64,000 nucleotides of DNA from NCBI GenBank assembly GCA_002898215.1, contig BEIF01000001.1, positions 1,339,602-1,403,601 on the forward strand, written 5' to 3'. This document shows, one piece after another, positions 586 through 12,458 of this stretch. How positions within the stretch are numbered: the stretch's first letter is position 1; each line of letters begins with the position of its first letter. Below the pieces are notes generated by a model. The model was given only the letters and a program-made list of their open reading frames with translations, made no database searches and had not been told where the DNA came from. The translations under genes and the position numbers were made by a program. This DNA comes from a bacterium HR29 (lineage in GTDB: Bacteria; Chloroflexota; Dehalococcoidia; Tepidiformales; Tepidiformaceae).

Positions 586-626
586 GCGCAAGTTACGATT
601 TTCACAAGATCCGACGGGCTCGTGCG

Positions 627-1268
627 ATGCCGCTGGAGATTCCCGAAGTCGTGATCAACCGATTACCGCTCTACGCGCGAGCACTGGCCGAGCTGGCCGC
701 GCGCGGTGAGCAAGTGGTGAGCTCCCAAACGCTGGGCGAGATGCTGGAGGTGACGCCGGCCCAGATCCGGAAGGACTTGAGCTACTTCGGGCGCTTCGGC
801 AAGCAAGGGCGTGGCTATAACGTCCAGCTCCTCCTGGCGAAACTCCGGGAGATCCTCGGCCTCGACCGGCAATGGCGGGTCATCGTGGTCGGTGTCGGCC
901 GCCTGGGCCAGGCCATCGTCGAGTACGGCGGCTTCGAGCCGCAAGGGTTCCACATCGTCGCCGCCTTCGATGCCGACCCGGCACTCGTGGGCAAGCAAGT
1001 CGGGCGGATCCGCATCCGCAGCGTCGACGAGCTGGATGAATTCCTTCGGCGGGAACCCGTGGATATCGGCATCGTGGCCGTCCCCGCTCGAGCCGCGCAG
1101 GAGGTGATCGACCGCCTGGTGGCAGCGGGCGTTCGCGCCATCCTGAACTACGCACCGACGACGGCACACGTCCCGCCCGATGTCGCGATTCGCCACATCG
1201 ACCCTGTCATCGCGATGCAGAGCATGACGTACCACCTGAAGCTCCGTCAGGGCACGTCGGCGAAGTAG
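627..1268 (+). CDS. rex: Redox-sensing transcriptional repressor Rex
   Basis: This 213-residue protein has the normal Rex length and architecture: an N-terminal winged helix (about 1-80) with the signature QIRKDLSYFGRFGKQGRGY, then a Rossmann fold (about 85-213) with GVGRLGQAI for NAD(H) binding and a C-terminal domain-swapped helix containing MQSMTYHLKL. Rex family proteins bind DNA when NAD+ is high and leave it when NADH rises. It has its own promoter and is convergent with the atp-murA-mreB operon. A good Rex box lies on the promoter of that operon at 11750-11767, making the ATP synthase genes a likely target. Confidence 0.97.
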   Translation: MPLEIPEVVINRLPLYARALAELAARGEQVVSSQTLGEMLEVTPAQIRKDLSYFGRFGKQGRGYNVQLLLAKLREILGLDRQWRVIVVGVGRLGQAIVEYGGFEPQGFHIVAAFDADPALVGKQVGRIRIRSVDELDEFLRREPVDIGIVAVPARAAQEVIDRLVAAGVRAILNYAPTTAHVPPDVAIRHIDPVIAMQSMTYHLKLRQGTSAK

Positions 1269-1287: not shown

Positions 1288-2364
1288 TTAGGGCTGCTCC
1301 GCGTGTGGGAAGAGGCCGACGAGCGTCTCCTCCTCGGTAGGAAGGCTGCGCTCGATGATGTCGAGGTGGTCAAGGGCGATACCGGCGCCGATCGCCACGC
1401 ACTCGAGAGGGTTGTCGGCGACGTAACAGGGCACGCCTGTCTCCTCGGTAAGGAGCTCGTCGAGGTGGCGGAGCAGCGCGCCGCCGCCTGTGAGCACGAT
1501 GCCACGGTCGATGATGTCGGCCGCCAGCTCTGGGGGCGTCTTCTCGAGCACCGCGCGGACGGTCTGGACGATGACGCCGAGGCAATCCTGAATGGCCTGG
1601 GCGATCTCCACGCTCGACAGCGTGATCGTTTTGGGAAGGCCCGAAAGCTGATCCCGCCCCCGGACTTGCGTCTTCAGCCCCTCCTCGATGGGCAGGGCGG
1701 AGCCGATGGCGATCTTCACCTCTTCGGCCGTCTTCTCGCCGATGATGAGGTTATGTCGCCGTCGAACGTAGGCCATGATCGCCTCGTCGATGCGGTCTCC
1801 CGCCATCCGCACCGATTCGGAAACGACGATGCCGAAGAGGGAGATGACCGCCGCTTCGGTGCGGCCGCCGCCGATGTTGACCACCATGTTGCCGCGCGCC
1901 GAGGCGATGGGAATTTGCGCGCCGATTGCGGCCGCCAACGGCTCGGGGATGAGGTGCGCCGGTTTGCGGGCCCCCGCTTGCTCGGCTGCGTCGCGGACCG
2001 CGCGCTGCTCGACACTGGTGACGCCAGCCGGGACGGTGATCATCACCTCGGGCCGGATGAGGTTGAAGCGACCGGTGATCTGGCCGATGAAGTAGCGGAG
2101 CATCGCCTCGGTCGTCACGTAGTCGGCGATGACGCCGTCGCGCATGGGGCGGATGACGCTGATCGTCCCCGGCGTGCGTCCTTGCATAGCTCGGGCCTCG
2201 TTCCCCACGGCGAGGATGGCGCCGTCTCGGTTATGTTTCGCTACAACCGACGGTTCGTTGACGACGATGCCCTGGCCCTTGACATACACGAGGATGTTCG
2301 CCGTGCCCAGGTCGATGCCGGCGCGCTTCGGGGTGAAGAAGGGTGCGAGGAAGTCGAAGGCCAT
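1288..2364 (-). CDS. mreB: Rod shape-determining actin homologue MreB
   Basis: The 358-residue protein has the actin-fold ATPase motifs of Mre[19 protein letters not shown] (phosphate 1) near residue 17, INIGGG-like [14 protein letters not shown] (phosphate 2), and [14 protein letters not shown] (adenosine loop). MreB filaments steer cell-wall synthesis under the membrane. It is the last gene of the minus-strand operon and its ATG overlaps the murA stop by one base (TGATG), so it is translationally coupled to a peptidoglycan enzyme. mreC and mreD, often adjacent, are not in this window. Confidence 0.95.
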
Positions 2365-3647
2365 CAGATCCGCTCCAGGGAAGCGCCGAGCGCGCGGAGC
2401 TTCTCGTCCACCCGCTCGTATCCCCGGTCCAGGTGGTGGATGTCATCGATGATGGTGGTGCCCTCGGCGACGAGCGCCGCGAGGAGCACCGCAGCGCCAG
2501 CCCGCACATCGAGGGCGCGGACAAGCGCGCCGTGAAGTTTCGTGGGGCCGCTGATGATGGCGGACGAGCCCGTGCTTACGATCTCGGCTCCCATCTTCCG
2601 AAGCTCACCCACGTACAGCATCCGATTGTCGAACACCCGCTCGTGGATGACCGATATCCCCCGCGCCTGGGTGAGCAGTGCGGCCAGGGGAGCGTGGAGG
2701 TCGGTGGCGAGCCCAGGGTAGGGGAGTGCCTGGAAGCTCACCGCCCTCAGGTCGCCGTTCCGCCGGACCGTGAGCCCGCGCTCGGTGGGCTCGACTTCGA
2801 CCCCGGCTGCGCGCAGTTTCGCCAGCAGGGCGTCCATGACGGTAACCGGGGCATCGCAAAGGTCCACCGCCCCGCCCGTGATCGCCGCGGCGATCGCGTA
2901 CGTTCCCGCTTCGATCCGGTCGGGCATGATCCGCCCGGTGACACCGTGGAGAGCATCCACGCCCTCGATCTCGAGCACTTGGGTGCCGATGCCGGAAATG
3001 CGCGCCCCCATCGCGTTGAGCAGGTGGGCGAGCTCCTGCACCTCCGGTTCCGTGGCGGCGTTCACGATGGTCGTGTGCCCGCGCGCGAGTGCGGCGGCCA
3101 TCATGACGTTCTGCGTCCCGCTGACGGAGGGGTAATCCATGAAGATGCGCGCCCCCCTGAGCCGGCCGTCGGGCGCGGTGGCGCGGGCGACGAAGCGCTC
3201 GCCGACCCGCGAGATCTCGGCGCCGAGGGCCGCGAACCCCTCGAGGTGGACGTCGATAGGCCGCTGCCCGATGACGTCGCCGCCGGGCGGAGGCGAGGAC
3301 GCCCGTCCGAAGCGGGCGAGGAGGGGGCCCATCACCTGGAAGGAGGCCCGATTCTCAGAGATGAGCTCGGTCGGCGGGTCGAGCTGGGAAACGCTGGCCG
3401 CGTTCAAGCGGAGGGTTCCGGGGGCGACGCGCTCGACGGTTGCGCCGAGGCTCACGAGGAGCTCGGCCAAGGTATCGACGTCGCGGATGGCGGGGACGTT
3501 GGTGAGGATGACGTCTTCGTCGGTGAGCAGGGCGGCGCACATCGCCGCGAGGGCGTGGTTCTTCGCCCCGGAGACGTGGACACTCCCTCGAAGCACCGCG
3601 CCGCCATGGACGACGAGCCGGGGGCCGCGCGAACGCTGCGTGTTCAT
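2364..3647 (-). CDS. murA: UDP-N-acetylglucosamine 1-carboxyvinyltransferase MurA (Asp in place of catalytic Cys)
   Basis: MurA catalyses the first committed step of peptidoglycan synthesis, transferring enolpyruvate from PEP to UDP-GlcNAc in the cytoplasm. The 427-residue protein has the inverted alpha/beta barrel repeats, [11 protein letters not shown] with Lys29 and Asn30, and [15 protein letters not shown]. The active-site loop reads [14 protein letters not shown], with Asp124 where the Escherichia coli enzyme has Cys115. The same Cys-to-Asp change in mycobacterial and chlamydial MurA gives intrinsic fosfomycin resistance, so this enzyme is predicted to be insensitive. The ATG at 3647 is chosen because the frame upstream runs into atpC and lacks MurA character. 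Confidence 0.95.
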
Positions 3648-3696: not shown

Positions 3697-4137
3697 TCAC
3701 CCCGGACGTGGCGGACCCGGCCGTCGCCGCCGCTGCGCCACCCGCAGGCGCACCAGCGAGCGCTGGAGGGCGGCCTGGGCGCGGGCAAGGTCGACTTCGG
3801 CGGCGCCGCGCGCACGCGCTTCGCGGATGCGGGCTTCCGCCCGGGCTCGAGCAGCCTCCGCGCGCTGGACGTCGATCTCCTCGGCCGCTTCGGCAGCGTC
3901 CGCGAGGATGATGACGTGGTCCCGCTTCACCTCCATGAACCCGCCCGTCACGGCGAACGCTTCTTCGGCGCCGCCCTTGCGGAAGATGAGCTCGCCAGGC
4001 TCGAGCATCGTCATGAGCGCCGCGTGCTTGGGCAGGATGGTGAGCTGGCCCTCGATGCTCGGCACGATGAGCGCATCGATCCCGGTTTCGGTGCGAACCA
4101 CGCGCTCGGCCGTCACGATCTCGACGGTGAGGGGCAT
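3697..4137 (-). CDS. atpC: F-type ATP synthase epsilon subunit
   Basis: The 146-residue product starts MPLTVEIVTAERVV and contains the conserved PSIEGQLTILPKHAALMTML and GGFMEVKRDHVIILAD stretches of the N-terminal beta-sandwich (about 1-87). It ends in an Ala/Arg/Glu-rich helical hairpin. Epsilon belongs to the central stalk and modulates ATPase activity. The C-terminal tail after about residue 135 is unusually basic (RRRRPGPPRPG). It starts one base after atpD ends, so the two are coupled. Confidence 0.93.
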   Translation of the reverse strand: MPLTVEIVTAERVVRTETGIDALIVPSIEGQLTILPKHAALMTMLEPGELIFRKGGAEEAFAVTGGFMEVKRDHVIILADAAEAAEEIDVQRAEAARARAEARIREARARGAAEVDLARAQAALQRSLVRLRVAQRRRRPGPPRPG

Positions 4138-4138
4138 C

Positions 4139-5593
<1,455 letters not shown>

Positions 5594-6253
5594 TCATGCG
5601 GCCACCCCCACGATGTCGGCGAGATGGATGTCACGCAAGGAGCGGAGAACGCGGTCGGGCGCGCCCAAGTCGAGCCCTTCGGTGTACGGAGTGAGAACGG
5701 CCCACACCGTCATCCCTGCGCGGCGAGCGGCTTCGATGCCCGCCGGCGCGTCCTCCAGGGCGAGACAGGCTGACGCGGGAACCCCGAGCCGCTCCGCAGC
5801 GAGGAGGTAGATCTCTGGGTCGGGCTTACCGCGGTGGACGTCACTCCCGGTGACGACGACGTCGAACGCCTCCGTCAGCCCGATGCGCTCCAGGCAAGCC
5901 TCCACCCATTCCGCCGCGGAGGACGAGGCGAGCGCCACCGGCATATCCACCGCCCGCAGCTGGCGGACGAGCTCGACCGCGCCCGGCAGCGGCTGGGCGT
6001 TCTGTCGGTACTCCTCGAGGATGAGGGCGTTGTAACGGTCGCGGTACTCCTCCGGTGAAAGCGACAAGCCGAAGGCTTCCACCATCTGCCGCCACCCTGC
6101 CTTCGTGCCCATGAAGGGCTTGTACTCCTCGAGGGAGAGGGAGCGGCCCTCGGCCGCGAGCAGCCGGTTGACGGCCCGGAAGTGGAGCGGCTCGCCGTCG
6201 ACGAGGACGCCGTCCATATCGAACACAACTGCGGCGAATCGCCGGTCCGTCAT
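5594..6253 (-). CDS. HAD-superfamily hydrolase (beta-phosphoglucomutase / phosphatase-like) inside the atp operon
   Basis: This 219-residue protein is a subclass I HAD enzyme with a helical cap. Motif I is VFDMDGVLVD with the Asp12 nucleophile and Asp14, motif II is ALASSS, motif III is the Lys in GKPDPEIY, and motif IV is LEDAPAGIEAARRAGM. The start resembles beta-phosphoglucomutases and small sugar phosphatases, but the substrate cannot be read from sequence. Its ATG overlaps the atpG stop by four bases (ATGA), so it is co-translated with ATP synthase subunits. F1 operons normally read atpA-G-D-C without interruption, so the position is unusual. Confidence 0.9.
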   Translation of the reverse strand: MTDRRFAAVVFDMDGVLVDGEPLHFRAVNRLLAAEGRSLSLEEYKPFMGTKAGWRQMVEAFGLSLSPEEYRDRYNALILEEYRQNAQPLPGAVELVRQLRAVDMPVALASSSAAEWVEACLERIGLTEAFDVVVTGSDVHRGKPDPEIYLLAAERLGVPASACLALEDAPAGIEAARRAGMTVWAVLTPYTEGLDLGAPDRVLRSLRDIHLADIVGVAA

Positions 6254-7137
6254 TTCTGGATCGCCGCCGCACCGCCGACGATGTCGAGCAGCTCCTTCGT
6301 GATCTGCTCCTGGCGGGCCTTGTTGTAGGTAAGGGTGAGCTCGCGGACGAGCTCGTTGGCGTTGTCAGTGGCGTTCTTCATGGCGACCATGCGGGCGGAT
6401 TGTTCGCTCGCCGCCGACTCGAGGACGGCGTGGTAGATGAGCATCTCCACGTACCGCGGCAGGAGGCGTTCGAACACCGCCTTCGGCGACGGTTCGAAGA
6501 TGTAATCGAGGCGGAACTGCTCCGCCGCTTCCTCACCGAGCGCTTCCGGCGGCTCGATGGGGAGAAGCTGCTGAACCACGGGACGCTGGGTAACCGTGTT
6601 GATGAACCGGGCATAGGAGATGTAGACGCGGTCGACGACTCCGGCGAGGTAATCGTCGATGATGAGCCGAGCAATCGGCAGCGTATCGAGTTGCGAAGGG
6701 TAGTCGCCCAGCTCGGTGAACTCCGCAACCACGTTCTGGTGAGCGCGGATGAAGAAGTCGCGCCCCTTCTTCCCCACGGCGATGATCGCCGCCGGCTGCT
6801 CGAGCGAGGCGACGAACATGCCTGCGCTTCGGTTGAGGTTGGCGTTGAGGCCGCCGCAGAGCCCGCGGTCGGGCGTGATGTGCAGGACGCCGACGGTGCG
6901 GACTTCCTCGCGCCGCTGCAGGAGTGGATGGAGCGTCTCGAGCGCTTGCGTCCGGCTGAGGACGCCCGCGAGGCCGGCGAGCACCGACTCGAGCTTTTCG
7001 GCGTAAGGGCGTCCTTCGAGCGCGCGCTCCTGAGCACGACGCATCTTCGAGGCAGCCACGAGCTCGAGCGCGTGGGTGATGCGCGCCGTGTTGCGCACGC
7101 TTTGAATCCGTCGGCGGAGCTGGCGGATGGTTGCCAT
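6250..7137 (-). CDS. atpG: F-type ATP synthase gamma subunit
   Basis: The 295-residue gamma subunit starts MATIRQLRRRIQSVRNTARITHALELVAASKMRRAQ, the typical N-terminal helix of the rotor shaft. It contains ITPDRGLCGGLNANLNR and ends with the conserved C-terminal helix (MVAMKNATDNANELVRELTLTYNKARQEQITKELLDIVGGA, abbreviated here to its key features MKNATDNA and ITKELLDIV). Gamma couples c-ring rotation to the catalytic sites. It lies 35 bases after atpA and overlaps the following HAD gene by four bases. Confidence 0.97.
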   Translation of the reverse strand: MATIRQLRRRIQSVRNTARITHALELVAASKMRRAQERALEGRPYAEKLESVLAGLAGVLSRTQALETLHPLLQRREEVRTVGVLHITPDRGLCGGLNANLNRSAGMFVASLEQPAAIIAVGKKGRDFFIRAHQNVVAEFTELGDYPSQLDTLPIARLIIDDYLAGVVDRVYISYARFINTVTQRPVVQQLLPIEPPEALGEEAAEQFRLDYIFEPSPKAVFERLLPRYVEMLIYHAVLESAASEQSARMVAMKNATDNANELVRELTLTYNKARQEQITKELLDIVGGAAAIQK

Positions 7138-7172
7138 CGGCCGAGTCCTCTCTCAGAGACCAGGAGCAGGCC

Positions 7173-8675
<1,503 letters not shown>

Positions 8676-8714
8676 GGTTCGTACTCCTGGCGTGACGCCG
8701 TTCCGCGCGCGGGC

Positions 8715-9254
8715 TCACGGCGCGGCGGCGAGATGTTGTCGGAGGAGGCGCAGGCGCGTCCGCACGCTGCCGTCCACGAGTTTGTCGCCAACCCGGATGA
8801 CGATGCCACCCAAGAGGGAGGGGTCGACCCGGTGGCTGAGGCGGATCCTGCGGCCGCCGAGCCCTTCGGCCAGCGCCCGCTCCACCCGCTCCCGCAGCTC
8901 GGGGGTCAGCTCGGTGGCCGTGGCGACCTCGGCCTCGATGACACCTTCGTGCTCGTCGGCGAGTCGGGCGAACAGCTCGGCCACGCGCGGGCCCAGCGGC
9001 ACCCGGCGCTTCACGACGAGGAGCTTCGCCAGGTTCCGTACACCGGAGGGAACATCGAGGACACGGTCGACGAACTCGAGTCGTCGGTCGAGCGGCACAC
9101 GGTCATCGCCGAGGAAGAGCTGCACCTCGGGCATGGCGTAAACCTGTGCCATGTCGGCAAGCCCGGCGCGCCAGGCGTCGAGGTTCCCCTCCTCGAGGGC
9201 CACCTCGAAGGCGGCCTGGGCGTAGCGGCGGGCAGGGTCTCCGGCTCCAGCCAC
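8715..9254 (-). CDS. atpH: F-type ATP synthase delta subunit
   Basis: The 179-residue protein has the OSCP/delta N-terminal helical bundle (ARRYAQAAFEVALEEG) and a C-terminal domain ending in LLGGIVIRVGDKLVDGSVRTRLRLLRQHL. The GG-x-V/I-R-x-G-D-x-x-x-D-G-S-V pattern is diagnostic for delta. Delta ties the peripheral stalk to the top of F1. It starts with GTG at 9254, three bases after atpF. Confidence 0.95.
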   Translation of the reverse strand: MAGAGDPARRYAQAAFEVALEEGNLDAWRAGLADMAQVYAMPEVQLFLGDDRVPLDRRLEFVDRVLDVPSGVRNLAKLLVVKRRVPLGPRVAELFARLADEHEGVIEAEVATATELTPELRERVERALAEGLGGRRIRLSHRVDPSLLGGIVIRVGDKLVDGSVRTRLRLLRQHLAAAP

Positions 9255-9257
9255 GGC

Positions 9258-9767
9258 TCAGTTCCCGCTGAAGGGTGACTGGGCGAGCACGTCCTCGATC
9301 ACCCGTTGGTGGGCCTGGCGGTCGAGGGCCTGACCGATGACGCGCTCGGCAGCGGCGATCGTGAGGTCGGCGAAGGCGGCCCGGAGCTCGGCGATCGCCC
9401 GGTCGCGCTCCAGCTCGATTTCGGCCCGGGCGCGGGCGAGCGCCGCCTCCCGGTCGCGGGCGGCAGCCTCGCGCGCCTCCGCCTGGATGCGGTTGGCGAT
9501 TTCCTGCGCTTCGGCGACGAGGCGCTGGCCTTCGCGGCGCGCCGCCTCGAGCTGCTCCTGGATGTTCGCCTGGGCCTGGGCGGCCTCGGCGCGGGCAGCC
9601 TCGGCGGCGTTCAGACCCTCGGCGATTCGCTGTCGGCGCTCATCGAGCAAGCGCAGCACGGGCTTGTACAGCGTGAAGCGCAGGATGAGCAGGAGGACGA
9701 AGAAGTTCGCCACCTGCGCGATGAGCTGAGGGAGGTTGATGCCGAGGGCTTCGATGGCCTGGCCCAT
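9258..9767 (-). CDS. atpF: F-type ATP synthase b subunit
   Basis: The 169-residue protein has one N-terminal membrane helix (LIAQVANFFVLLLILRFTLYKPVL) followed by a long Ala/Glu/Arg-rich coiled coil (about 35-150). This is the usual form of subunit b, the peripheral stator that anchors F1 to subunit a. GAGG lies 7 bases before its ATG. It sits between atpE and atpH, as in other atp operons, and only one b-type gene is present. Confidence 0.95.
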   Translation of the reverse strand: MGQAIEALGINLPQLIAQVANFFVLLLILRFTLYKPVLRLLDERRQRIAEGLNAAEAARAEAAQAQANIQEQLEAARREGQRLVAEAQEIANRIQAEAREAAARDREAALARARAEIELERDRAIAELRAAFADLTIAAAERVIGQALDRQAHQRVIEDVLAQSPFSGN

Positions 9768-9795
9768 TGCGGTACCTCGAGCGGTGCTTCGCCGC

Positions 9796-10065
9796 CTAGA
9801 TGACGAACGCGATGATGATGGCGGTGAGTAGCGCGTAGATGCCGATCGCTTCGGCGAAGGCCACGCCGAGGATCATGTTCGTCTGGATGGCGCCGCGCGC
9901 TTCCGGATTGCGGCCGAGGGCCTCCATCGCCTTCCCGACGAGCCAGCCGATGGCGAGCGCGGGGCCGAGGGAGCCGATCGCCATGGCGAGGCCCGCGCCC
10001 ATCGCCTTACCGAGCTGCGGATCGTTGAAGGTCTGGAGGAAGGCAATCAGATGAGCGAGGTCCAT
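9796..10065 (-). CDS. atpE: F-type ATP synthase c subunit (proton type)
   Basis: The 89-residue proteolipid has two membrane helices joined by a polar loop containing GRNPEARG. The ion-binding glutamate is in VAFAEAIGIYALL in helix 2. Helix 1 lacks the Gln, and the residue after the glutamate is Ala, so the Na+-binding signature (Gln, Val, Glu, Ser/Thr) is absent and a proton-driven ring is predicted. An N-terminal extension of about 18 residues (MDLAHLIAFLQTFNDPQL) precedes helix 1. Confidence 0.95.
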   Translation of the reverse strand: MDLAHLIAFLQTFNDPQLGKAMGAGLAMAIGSLGPALAIGWLVGKAMEALGRNPEARGAIQTNMILGVAFAEAIGIYALLTAIIIAFVI

Positions 10066-10154
10066 TTGGCTACCAATGCCTCCATTCGTGATGGTGTCCC
10101 TCTTCGGGCAGGCTGCATTCTCGCTCCACGGACGGCCGAGCCGTCCGGTTGGCG

Positions 10155-11465
10155 CTAGCCGTGGTGCGCTCCCGCGGCCGTAGGCTGATGTTCGCCATGG
10201 CCTTCGTGTTCATGTTCGTCGCCATGGTGCTCAACTGCCATCACAAGGAATACAAGCGTCAGCAACGCGAACACCGCCGCCTGGATGAACCCCACGAAGA
10301 GCTCAAGGCCATAGATCACATCCACGAGCAGGAACGGCATGAGGAAGGTAAGCATAACGATGAGGACTTCGCCGGCGAAGATGTTCCCAAAGAGTCGAAA
10401 GGCGAAGCTGATGATCCGGATGAATTCGGAGACGAGCTCGAGCAGACCGACGAAGGTAAGCACCGGGTTCGAGAAGTTGAAAAACTTCCGCAGGTAGCCG
10501 ATCCCCAGCGATCGGAAGCCGAAGAATTCCACAATGAGGAAGGAGCAGAACCCGAGCGCGAGGGTGTTGTTGATATCGCTGAAGGCGCTGCGGAACAGCG
10601 GAATCACGAGCGCCAGCTTCTGGCCGGGGAACTCCACGTCGGTCACCACCGCGTGCAGCGCCGGGCTCTCGACCCCATGCCCTTCCCCGTGGCCCCCGGC
10701 CTCGGAGCCGTGTTCGCCCTCCGCGGGGGCGGTGACGAGCTTCGGCGCCTTCGGGTCGGCTTCCAGGGCTGCGAGCGCGGCCTTCACCTCCTCGGCGGTC
10801 GGAGCCGCGTGCTCCTCCTCACCCTGGCGGTGGAAATCGGTGAACGATTCGGCGAGGAAGACGATGTACCGGTCGAGCGCCTCGCCAGCGCTCGTGCCCG
10901 CGGGGATCTCGAACTCCACAGCCTCGCCGCCAGGCTTCGTGATGGCTACGCCGCCAGCGTTCTCCATGAACCAGGCGGCAAAATGCTCGTCCTCCTCGAA
11001 CGGCTCTCCCGCCTCCGCGTGGTCAACAATCTCGTGGAAGATGTGCGCCCCGACGTCTTCGGTCTTGCCGATGGCGTTGAAGAACGGCAGCAGTCCCATC
11101 CAGTTTGAGACGATGATGAAGATGAAAAACGTGGCGACGACCGCAAAAAATCGCCGGCCGTTTACGGTGCCGGCGACACTCTCCACTTGGTCGAGCAGGA
11201 ACTCGATGACCGCCTCCACGAAGTTCTGCACGCCGGAGGGGACCATCTTCATCCCACGGGTGGCCGCGAGGGAGAGGCCGATGATGACCACCATCGACAT
11301 CCACGAGGTGATGAGCGTGTTGGAGATGTTGAGCGGCCCGACCCTGGTGATGATTTCCGCGGGGACGATGATTTCCGGCTGCGGCCCCCGGGCGATGAGA
11401 AGCCCGATGCCCAGCCAGCCGATCACGGCGACGACAGCGATAGCCGCGATGACCGCCTTCTTCAC
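10155..11465 (-). CDS. atpB: F-type ATP synthase a subunit with large hydrophilic insertion
   Basis: Subunit a forms the proton half-channels next to the c-ring. The essential arginine is Arg357 in FAFRLFGNIFAGE, with Glu366 and Gln395 (GFIQAAVFALLTLVF) at the other conserved sites. The protein is 436 residues, against about 230-310 in most bacteria. The excess lies between the SNWMGLLPFF helix (about 120-130) and FPGQKLALVIPLFRSAFSDINNTLALG (from about 279). This insertion, about residues 131-278, is polar, acidic and His-rich (for example HGSEAGGHGEGHG). The C-terminal tail is also His-rich (VEHHGDEHEHEGHGEH). The GTG at 11465 follows GAGGGGGAG closely. Confidence 0.93.
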   Translation of the reverse strand: MKKAVIAAIAVVAVIGWLGIGLLIARGPQPEIIVPAEIITRVGPLNISNTLITSWMSMVVIIGLSLAATRGMKMVPSGVQNFVEAVIEFLLDQVESVAGTVNGRRFFAVVATFFIFIIVSNWMGLLPFFNAIGKTEDVGAHIFHEIVDHAEAGEPFEEDEHFAAWFMENAGGVAITKPGGEAVEFEIPAGTSAGEALDRYIVFLAESFTDFHRQGEEEHAAPTAEEVKAALAALEADPKAPKLVTAPAEGEHGSEAGGHGEGHGVESPALHAVVTDVEFPGQKLALVIPLFRSAFSDINNTLALGFCSFLIVEFFGFRSLGIGYLRKFFNFSNPVLTFVGLLELVSEFIRIISFAFRLFGNIFAGEVLIVMLTFLMPFLLVDVIYGLELFVGFIQAAVFALLTLVFLVMAVEHHGDEHEHEGHGEHQPTAAGAHHG

Positions 11466-11478
11466 ACTCCCCCTCGCG

Positions 11479-11700
11479 TCAGGCCCCGCCGAAGCGCCGG
11501 AGAAAATCGAGCAGCATGCGAATTCCCCCGACGAGGGCTACAGCGAGGCCGAAGATGGCACCCAACAGGGTGAAGAGCGGCGAGAGACCGGTGGCATCGT
11601 CGGCCCAACGGCCGAGCGCAACCCCGAGGATGATGCAGGTGGCGAAGTACCACCCGATGCCGAGTAGATAGGCAGCGGGTACGGCCCAGCTGCCCACCAT
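11479..11700 (-). CDS. atpI: AtpI-like small membrane protein (AtpZ/AtpI family)
   Basis: The 73-residue protein has two hydrophobic helices (about 7-29 and 42-65) joined by RWADDATGLSP, with the arrangement of AtpI/AtpZ proteins that open many atp operons. Members are implicated in c-ring assembly or Mg2+/Ca2+ handling. It is the first gene of the operon and lies 13 bases before atpB. The ATG at 11700 directly abuts GAGGAGGG, so the GTG codon immediately after it, at 11697, may be the true initiator. Confidence 0.85.
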   Translation of the reverse strand: MVGSWAVPAAYLLGIGWYFATCIILGVALGRWADDATGLSPLFTLLGAIFGLAVALVGGIRMLLDFLRRFGGA

Positions 11701-11737: not shown

Positions 11738-11767
11738 ATGATACGGGGATTGTGAAGCAATGCGCAA
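11738..11767 (-). promoter_or_regulatory. Promoter of the atp-murA-mreB operon
   Basis: On the minus strand, TTGCGC (positions 11762-11767) and TATCAT (11738-11743) form -35 and -10 elements with an 18-base spacer. The predicted start is near 11731, about 30 bases before atpI. No other plausible promoter is seen between the nuclease-family gene (ends 11783) and atpI. Confidence 0.6.
11750..11767. promoter_or_regulatory. Rex operator (ROP-like) over the atp promoter
   Basis: The 18 bases read TTGTGAAGCAATGCGCAA on the plus strand. They match the Rex consensus TTGTGAA-N4-TTCACAA at all 7 positions of the left half and 5 of 7 of the right half. The site covers the -35 hexamer and most of the spacer of the atp promoter, the ideal place for a repressor. 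Rex is encoded at the far end of the same locus. Rex control of an atp operon is known from Streptomyces; for this organism it is inference. Confidence 0.65.
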
Positions 11768-11782: not shown

Positions 11783-12340
11783 TCAGGACTTCCGCCGCTC
11801 GTCGAAATCGTCGAGGTCGAGGCCTTCGATGAACTCCTTGAACGCGCCGAGCTTCTCCAGCTCCTGCGGGTCGACGGGCTTCGTCCGCTCCGGCGTGACT
11901 GGCTCGCTCGCTGCCTGAGCCGGTTCGGTCTCCGGCTCCTCATCCAGCGTGACGCCCGCCTGATCGAGCACCGACTCCTCGGCGAAGATCGGCACCTCGG
12001 CCCGGACAGCCAAGGCGATGGCGTCCGAGGGCCGAGAGTCGATCTCGAGCGTGCGGCCGTTGAACTCCAACACGATGCGCGCGTAGAAGGTGTCGTTTGC
12101 AAGGTCGTTCACCACGATGTAGACGACGCGCGCACCAAGCTCGTCGAGAATGTTGCGCAGCAAATCGTGGGTGAGCGGGCGGGCCACCGCAACATCCTGC
12201 AGGCGCACGGCAATCGCGTCCGCCTCGGCCGGACCGATCCAGATGGGCAGATACCGGTCGGTCCCCTTTTCGCGCAGGATGACGACCCGCTGGTAATTGG
12301 TCAGGCTCAGCCTGACGCTCTCGATCGTCATCTCCCTCAC
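11783..12340 (-). CDS. Bifunctional nuclease (BFN/DUF151) family protein
   Basis: The first 130 residues (VREMTIESVRLSLTNYQRVV, then LPIWIGPAEADAI and SRPSDAIALAVRAEVPIFA) match the BFN domain found in many bacteria and in plants, where a member showed RNase/DNase activity. The remainder is a Pro/Glu-rich linker and a short acidic helix ending GLDLDDFDERRKS, common in this family. The GTG at 12340 is preferred over the ATG three codons later because GGAGG lies 7 bases before it. The 185-residue gene stands alone upstream of the atp promoter. The physiological substrate is unknown. Confidence 0.88.
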   Translation of the reverse strand: MREMTIESVRLSLTNYQRVVILREKGTDRYLPIWIGPAEADAIAVRLQDVAVARPLTHDLLRNILDELGARVVYIVVNDLANDTFYARIVLEFNGRTLEIDSRPSDAIALAVRAEVPIFAEESVLDQAGVTLDEEPETEPAQAASEPVTPERTKPVDPQELEKLGAFKEFIEGLDLDDFDERRKS

Positions 12341-12458
12341 CGCGCACCCTCCAGTCCACGGTTCTCCGCGGAGGAGACTCCGAGGCGATCTTAGGCAGGC
12401 CGCGATCGGCGAGTCAATCGATTCTGCGGCATCCCGGCGTTCCGCTCCAGCGGGGCCG

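Follow-up and report, generated by a model that had tools for sequence, protein, structure and literature searches.

Rex regulons have reportedly been reconstructed by genome comparison in several phyla by Ravcheev et al. in 2012, with the same type of evidence as is used here. Thermotoga maritima, one of the organisms whose Rex is compared below, is fermentative, and its TM0201 operator is not known to lie on an ATP synthase operon. That operator reads TTGAGAA-ATTT-ATCACAA and is asymmetric, as is the box described in this work, and in the T. maritima Rex complex Arg48 and Lys49 contact bases (PMC8836258). The RegPrecise collection for Chloroflexi (five genomes, PMC3840689) is likewise a comparative regulon reconstruction on the same type of evidence as ours.

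Rex control of ATP synthase has been established experimentally in Streptomyces avermitilis, where Rex binds atpI in vivo, represses atpIBEFHAGDC, and protects TTGTGATACGGTTCACGA in a footprint that runs from -50 to -22 of atpI and includes part of the -35 (PMC5355995); an earlier, sequence-only reading of the DNA presented above had correctly noted such control in Streptomyces. The locus analyzed here resembles that system in its predicted Rex box, which lies between the -35 and -10 and overlaps the -35 of an operon beginning with atpI, and in the candidate targets complex I and rex, which are also Rex targets in S. avermitilis (PMC5355995). It differs in its left half-site, which is TTGCG. 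Moreover, cydA1B1CD belongs to the S. avermitilis regulon, and rex is the first gene of a heme operon there (PMC5355995), whereas here coxB (cytochrome oxidase) is a predicted target and rex is convergent with atp-murA-mreB.

The atp-murA-mreB cluster and rex

The window, by which we mean the whole 64-kb stretch of DNA analyzed, contains the following features.

590–607, plus strand: predicted autoregulatory Rex operator, AAGTTACGATTTTCACAA, in the rex promoter
627–1268, plus strand: rex, convergent with mreB (NF003995, 280 bits against the curated family cut-off of 126; single copy in the genome)
1288–3620, minus strand: murA (2364 to about 3620) and mreB (1288–2364), downstream of atpC (NCBIfam)
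3697–11465, minus strand: atpB-E-F-H-A-G-(HAD phosphatase)-atpD-atpC (NCBIfam/Pfam)
11479–11700, minus strand: atpI, first gene of the cluster (PF09527; the start may be the GTG at 11697)
11738–11743, minus strand: predicted -10, TATCAT (family consensus TATGAT), after an 18-bp spacer
11750–11767, minus strand: predicted Rex operator, with two mismatches, conserved in the family and tracking rex across the class
11762–11767, minus strand: predicted -35, TTGCGC, assigned from sequence and doubling as the left half-site of the operator; invariant in 29 genomes

Along the minus strand, a transporter gene and a bifunctional-nuclease gene, whose stop is at 11783, come before the box, which is followed in turn by atpI-B-E-F-H-A-G, the HAD phosphatase, atpD, atpC, murA, and mreB. 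The sequence-only reading had placed rex at the other end of this operon; the gene does adjoin the mreB end (1288), but it lies outside the predicted operon, on the plus strand, and is convergent with it. Nine relatives were compared, three of them members of the same family and the other six each from a further family, and all keep the order of rex, mreB-murA, and atp.

PF06971 was found once in the genome, so that rex is a single-copy gene. Its product has the winged-helix N-terminal domain and the Rossmann NAD(H) domain of Rex proteins (PF06971, PF02629), with intact DNA- and NAD(H)-binding residues, and matches the solved Rex structures 5ZZ5 and 7WB3 over its whole length (E=4e-49); the latter is the homologous T. 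maritima protein (PMC8836258). The recognition helix, QIRKDLSYFG, has the same letters throughout this alignment, in which the contact region runs QIRKDLSYFG...GRGY with a glycine-rich wing and counterparts of T. maritima Arg48 and Lys49 are present. The NAD(H)-binding segments GVGRLG, FDADP, and EY also match those of the solved Rex proteins, and their glycine-rich, Asp, and Tyr positions are conserved.

The box at the atpI promoter

The plus-strand sequence TTGTGAAGCAATGCGCAA at 11750–11767 agrees with the Rex consensus TTGTGAA-N4-TTCACAA at 12 of 14 positions, the count already given in the sequence-only reading. Read on the minus strand, the direction of atp transcription, it is TTGCGCATTGCTTCACAA, or TTGCGCA-TTGC-TTCACAA, with both mismatches in the left half (TTGCGCA versus TTGTGAA). 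The box is thus an inverted repeat of the TTGTGAA-N4-TTCACAA type with no more than three mismatches, located at a promoter, where it spans the predicted -35 and the spacer. At this threshold 0.29 matches are expected in the window and 27 of 100 shuffled windows contain at least one, so the window alone leaves the atpI box non-significant. The same threshold returned 28 sites from the organism's own genome, compared with nine for a reversed-motif control, and in 18 of the 20 loci fetched no predicted gene overlaps the site.

TTGCGC and TATCAT, separated by 18 bp, make up a plausible promoter that lies about 40 nt before atpI. The earlier proposal that the box covers the -35 and spacer agrees with this prediction, the TTGCGC half-site being the predicted -35 itself. 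A strict sigma-70 scan did not list the atpI promoter, because its hexamers are weak, and returned a promoter-like site at 12417–12388, upstream of the nuclease gene. The earlier claim that the atpI promoter was the only one seen for the operon is therefore too strong, and read-through into the atp genes from the preceding gene is possible.

In the organism's family, TTGCGC-N6-TCACAA precedes atpI at the same position in all 29 genomes with sequence there (own genome included, 13 genera), among relatives whose AtpB proteins are merely 52–67% identical; the box was thus found where the sequence-only reading had suggested looking for it, upstream of atpI in close relatives. A TATGAT-type -10 sits 18 bp after TTGCGC in these promoters. 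Mean pairwise identity among the 29 genomes is 0.90 in the box and 0.94 in the -10 hexamer, compared with 0.37 in the 50 bp just upstream of the box. Such conservation inside diverged DNA excludes chance, which the window alone does not.

Other boxes and co-occurrence with rex

Similar boxes recur at respiratory promoters and at rex itself. In the rex promoter (-35 TTGACC, 556–561; -10 TATAGT, 580–585) the box lies downstream of the -10, and 29 of 30 rex promoters in the family carry, just after the -10, GTTACGNATTTCACAA or a variant sharing the TTTCACAA half; the site is asymmetric (GTTAC...TTCACAA). At coxB, whose promoter has a TTGACA-type -35 and a TATAAC-type -10, 14 of the 18 family loci have TTGCG[A/C]-N6-TTCACAA directly after the -10. 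TTGCG is not a -35 at coxB, and it therefore counts as a half-site independently of any -35 role. TTGTG-N7-TCACAA-like boxes follow the -10 of nuoA in at least 13 of 22 family loci. Because the boxes at coxB, nuoA, and rex lie downstream of the -10, the box must be more than a promoter element. The pattern TTGYG-N7-TCACAA has 134 sites in 25 family genomes versus 12 for the reversed control, and six versus none in the own genome. Four of these six are at atpI, coxB, nuoA, and a nuoI/nuoG cluster; of the other two, one is close to a nuoB-like gene and one precedes an uncharacterised gene.

Several separate complex I clusters have a Rex-like box nearby, including two nuoA copies, the nuoI/nuoG cluster, and the isolated nuoB-like gene; in the own genome (G000) these boxes are found at C1:350008, C1:734346, C3:28563, and C4:37598. 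There is also a second group of intergenic palindromes, TCGTGA-N6-TCACGA (G000 C1:961914, C1:1073593, C1:1051826, and C2:287917), preceding genes for an acyl-CoA dehydrogenase, a histidine kinase, a PHP protein, and a multicopper oxidase, which are perhaps CRP-type sites rather than Rex sites. A near-perfect palindrome, TTGTGCAAAAATGCACAA (G000 C1:215715-215732), separates a dihydroorotate dehydrogenase gene from a divergently transcribed Mrp/ApbC gene.

To the family data we added a class-wide sample drawn outside the family, in which a box upstream of atpI was counted at up to three mismatches. It is present in 32 of 64 genomes with rex versus three of 34 without (Fisher test, p=4e-5; p=1.5e-4 when counted by genus). 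Counted by family, the figures are 21 of 31 with rex and none of 14 without (p=1.2e-5); genomes of both kinds are related in clusters, for which the collapse to families corrects in part. When the half-sites were permuted, the 149 resulting motifs had on average 1.3 matches, and at most nine, in the 64 regions from rex-bearing genomes; the permutation script covered whole fetched stretches, and the real motif then matches in four of the 34 genomes lacking rex. The clear cases of a box without rex, G073 and G148, are drafts (90% complete, 8% contaminated) from families that otherwise bear rex, and the gene was likely missed in them, while the third match, in G082, has a different offset and resembles a chance hit.

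Half of the rex-bearing genomes of the class have no box before atpI at up to three mismatches, indicating that Rex control of atp is not universal. In other families the box typically reads TTGTGATANNNTTCRCAA, and its core contains or overlaps the -10 hexamer (TGTGA-TATAAT-type cores); one example is TTGACC-N18-TATAAT within TCGTGATATAATGCACGA. As the box lies over the -35 in the organism's own family and over the -10 in others, the operator appears to have moved within the promoter while staying upstream of atpI.

These distributions bear on which protein, if any, reads the box. The CRP/FNR consensus, TGTGA-N6-TCACA, is identical in spacing and letters to the core of the Rex site, two CRP-type HTH proteins score above cut-off in the own genome, and the TCGTGA-N6-TCACGA palindromes, which stand before non-respiratory genes, may be CRP sites, so a regulator of this family could be the reader instead. 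However, in a set of 93 genomes of the class, presence of the box follows that of rex (p=1.6e-5) and shows no association with CRP-type HTH proteins (p=0.66). Eleven genomes with the box have no clear CRP-type protein, 22 of 25 with a CRP-type protein and no rex lack the box, and the genes that carry it (complex I, oxidase, ATP synthase, rex) are Rex targets (PMC5355995). The co-occurrence test leads us to reject a CRP/FNR-family protein as the main reader, a role that we regard as improbable.

The conserved block might instead be a strong core promoter and nothing more, with a lineage-specific -35, a constrained spacer, and an incidental likeness to Rex sites. TTGCGC and TATGAT are indeed the -35 and -10 of one promoter, and the conservation takes in the -10, yet TCACAA is invariant within the spacer, where sequence is normally free. 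Furthermore, at coxB this TTGCG-N7-TCACAA comes after the -10, and hence is not a -35 there, the box sits over the -10 in other families, and it is missing where rex is missing. We reject this very improbable explanation because the box is placed differently at coxB, nuoA, and rex, as well as in other families. The notion that a two-mismatch match arose by chance draws on the 27% of 64-kb shuffles that yield a match at up to three mismatches; it is refuted, and can for practical purposes be dismissed, because conservation holds in 29 of 29 genomes at one position amid diverged DNA and none of the 149 permuted half-sites came near the real count.

Proposed redox control and its reach

We consider it highly probable that the box is a Rex operator, at which NAD+-bound Rex would repress atp and NADH would relieve the repression. 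The sequence-only reading had interpreted the box in this way, and its interpretation gains support from the conservation in all 29 family genomes, from the tracking of rex rather than of CRP-type proteins, and from the recurrence at nuoA, coxB, and rex. With NAD+ plentiful, a Rex dimer would occupy 11750–11767, over the -35 and most of the spacer, and block RNA polymerase at the atp promoter. Under a shortage of oxygen or another acceptor NADH would rise and bind Rex, the DNA-binding domains would close up, and Rex would leave, allowing ATP synthase to be made. Both occlusion and release by NADH are expected here by analogy with atpI of S. avermitilis (PMC5355995). The same Rex may act on its own gene, the complex I clusters, and cytochrome oxidase via boxes at transcription starts; at coxB, nuoA, and rex the box would cover the expected start site, which would be an occluding position too.

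Based on gene order, the gap of about 77 bp between atpC and murA, and the lack of a recognisable promoter (a scan of this gap returned no promoter-like site), murA and mreB may be carried on the atp transcript and hence be under Rex co-control. This suggestion is made with caution, as gaps are longer in some relatives, exceeding 1 kb in G022.

A switch of this kind would be fairly ordinary, Rex control of atp being already proven in Streptomyces; what is added here is the extension to a new lineage, a clean pattern of co-occurrence with rex, and an operator whose position shifts. If correct, our reading would carry the experimentally established control of ATP synthase by Rex beyond Streptomyces into an unrelated lineage, represented here by mostly draft genomes, on comparative evidence that is unusually clean, and would define a small candidate regulon of rex, atp, the nuo clusters, and cox. 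It would also exemplify an operator that is retained even as its location with respect to the promoter shifts, and it prompts the testable question of whether the wall genes downstream of atp inherit redox control. More tentatively, and in our view less likely than not, a single NADH-responsive repressor might set the expression of all of oxidative phosphorylation (complex I, the terminal oxidase, and ATP synthase) together with that of the cell-wall genes murA and mreB, its operator shifting between promoter elements, across a large, mostly uncultured class.

Two other aspects of the atp genes were observed. The HAD phosphatase gene between atpG and atpD (window 5594–6253, minus strand) is beta-phosphoglucomutase-like, and its position is kept in same-family relatives and in at least one other family. 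AtpB (10155–11465, minus strand) is 436 aa long, with a His-rich C-terminal tail and a long acidic, His-rich insert that splits the Pfam domain, and many families across the class show the domain split in this way.
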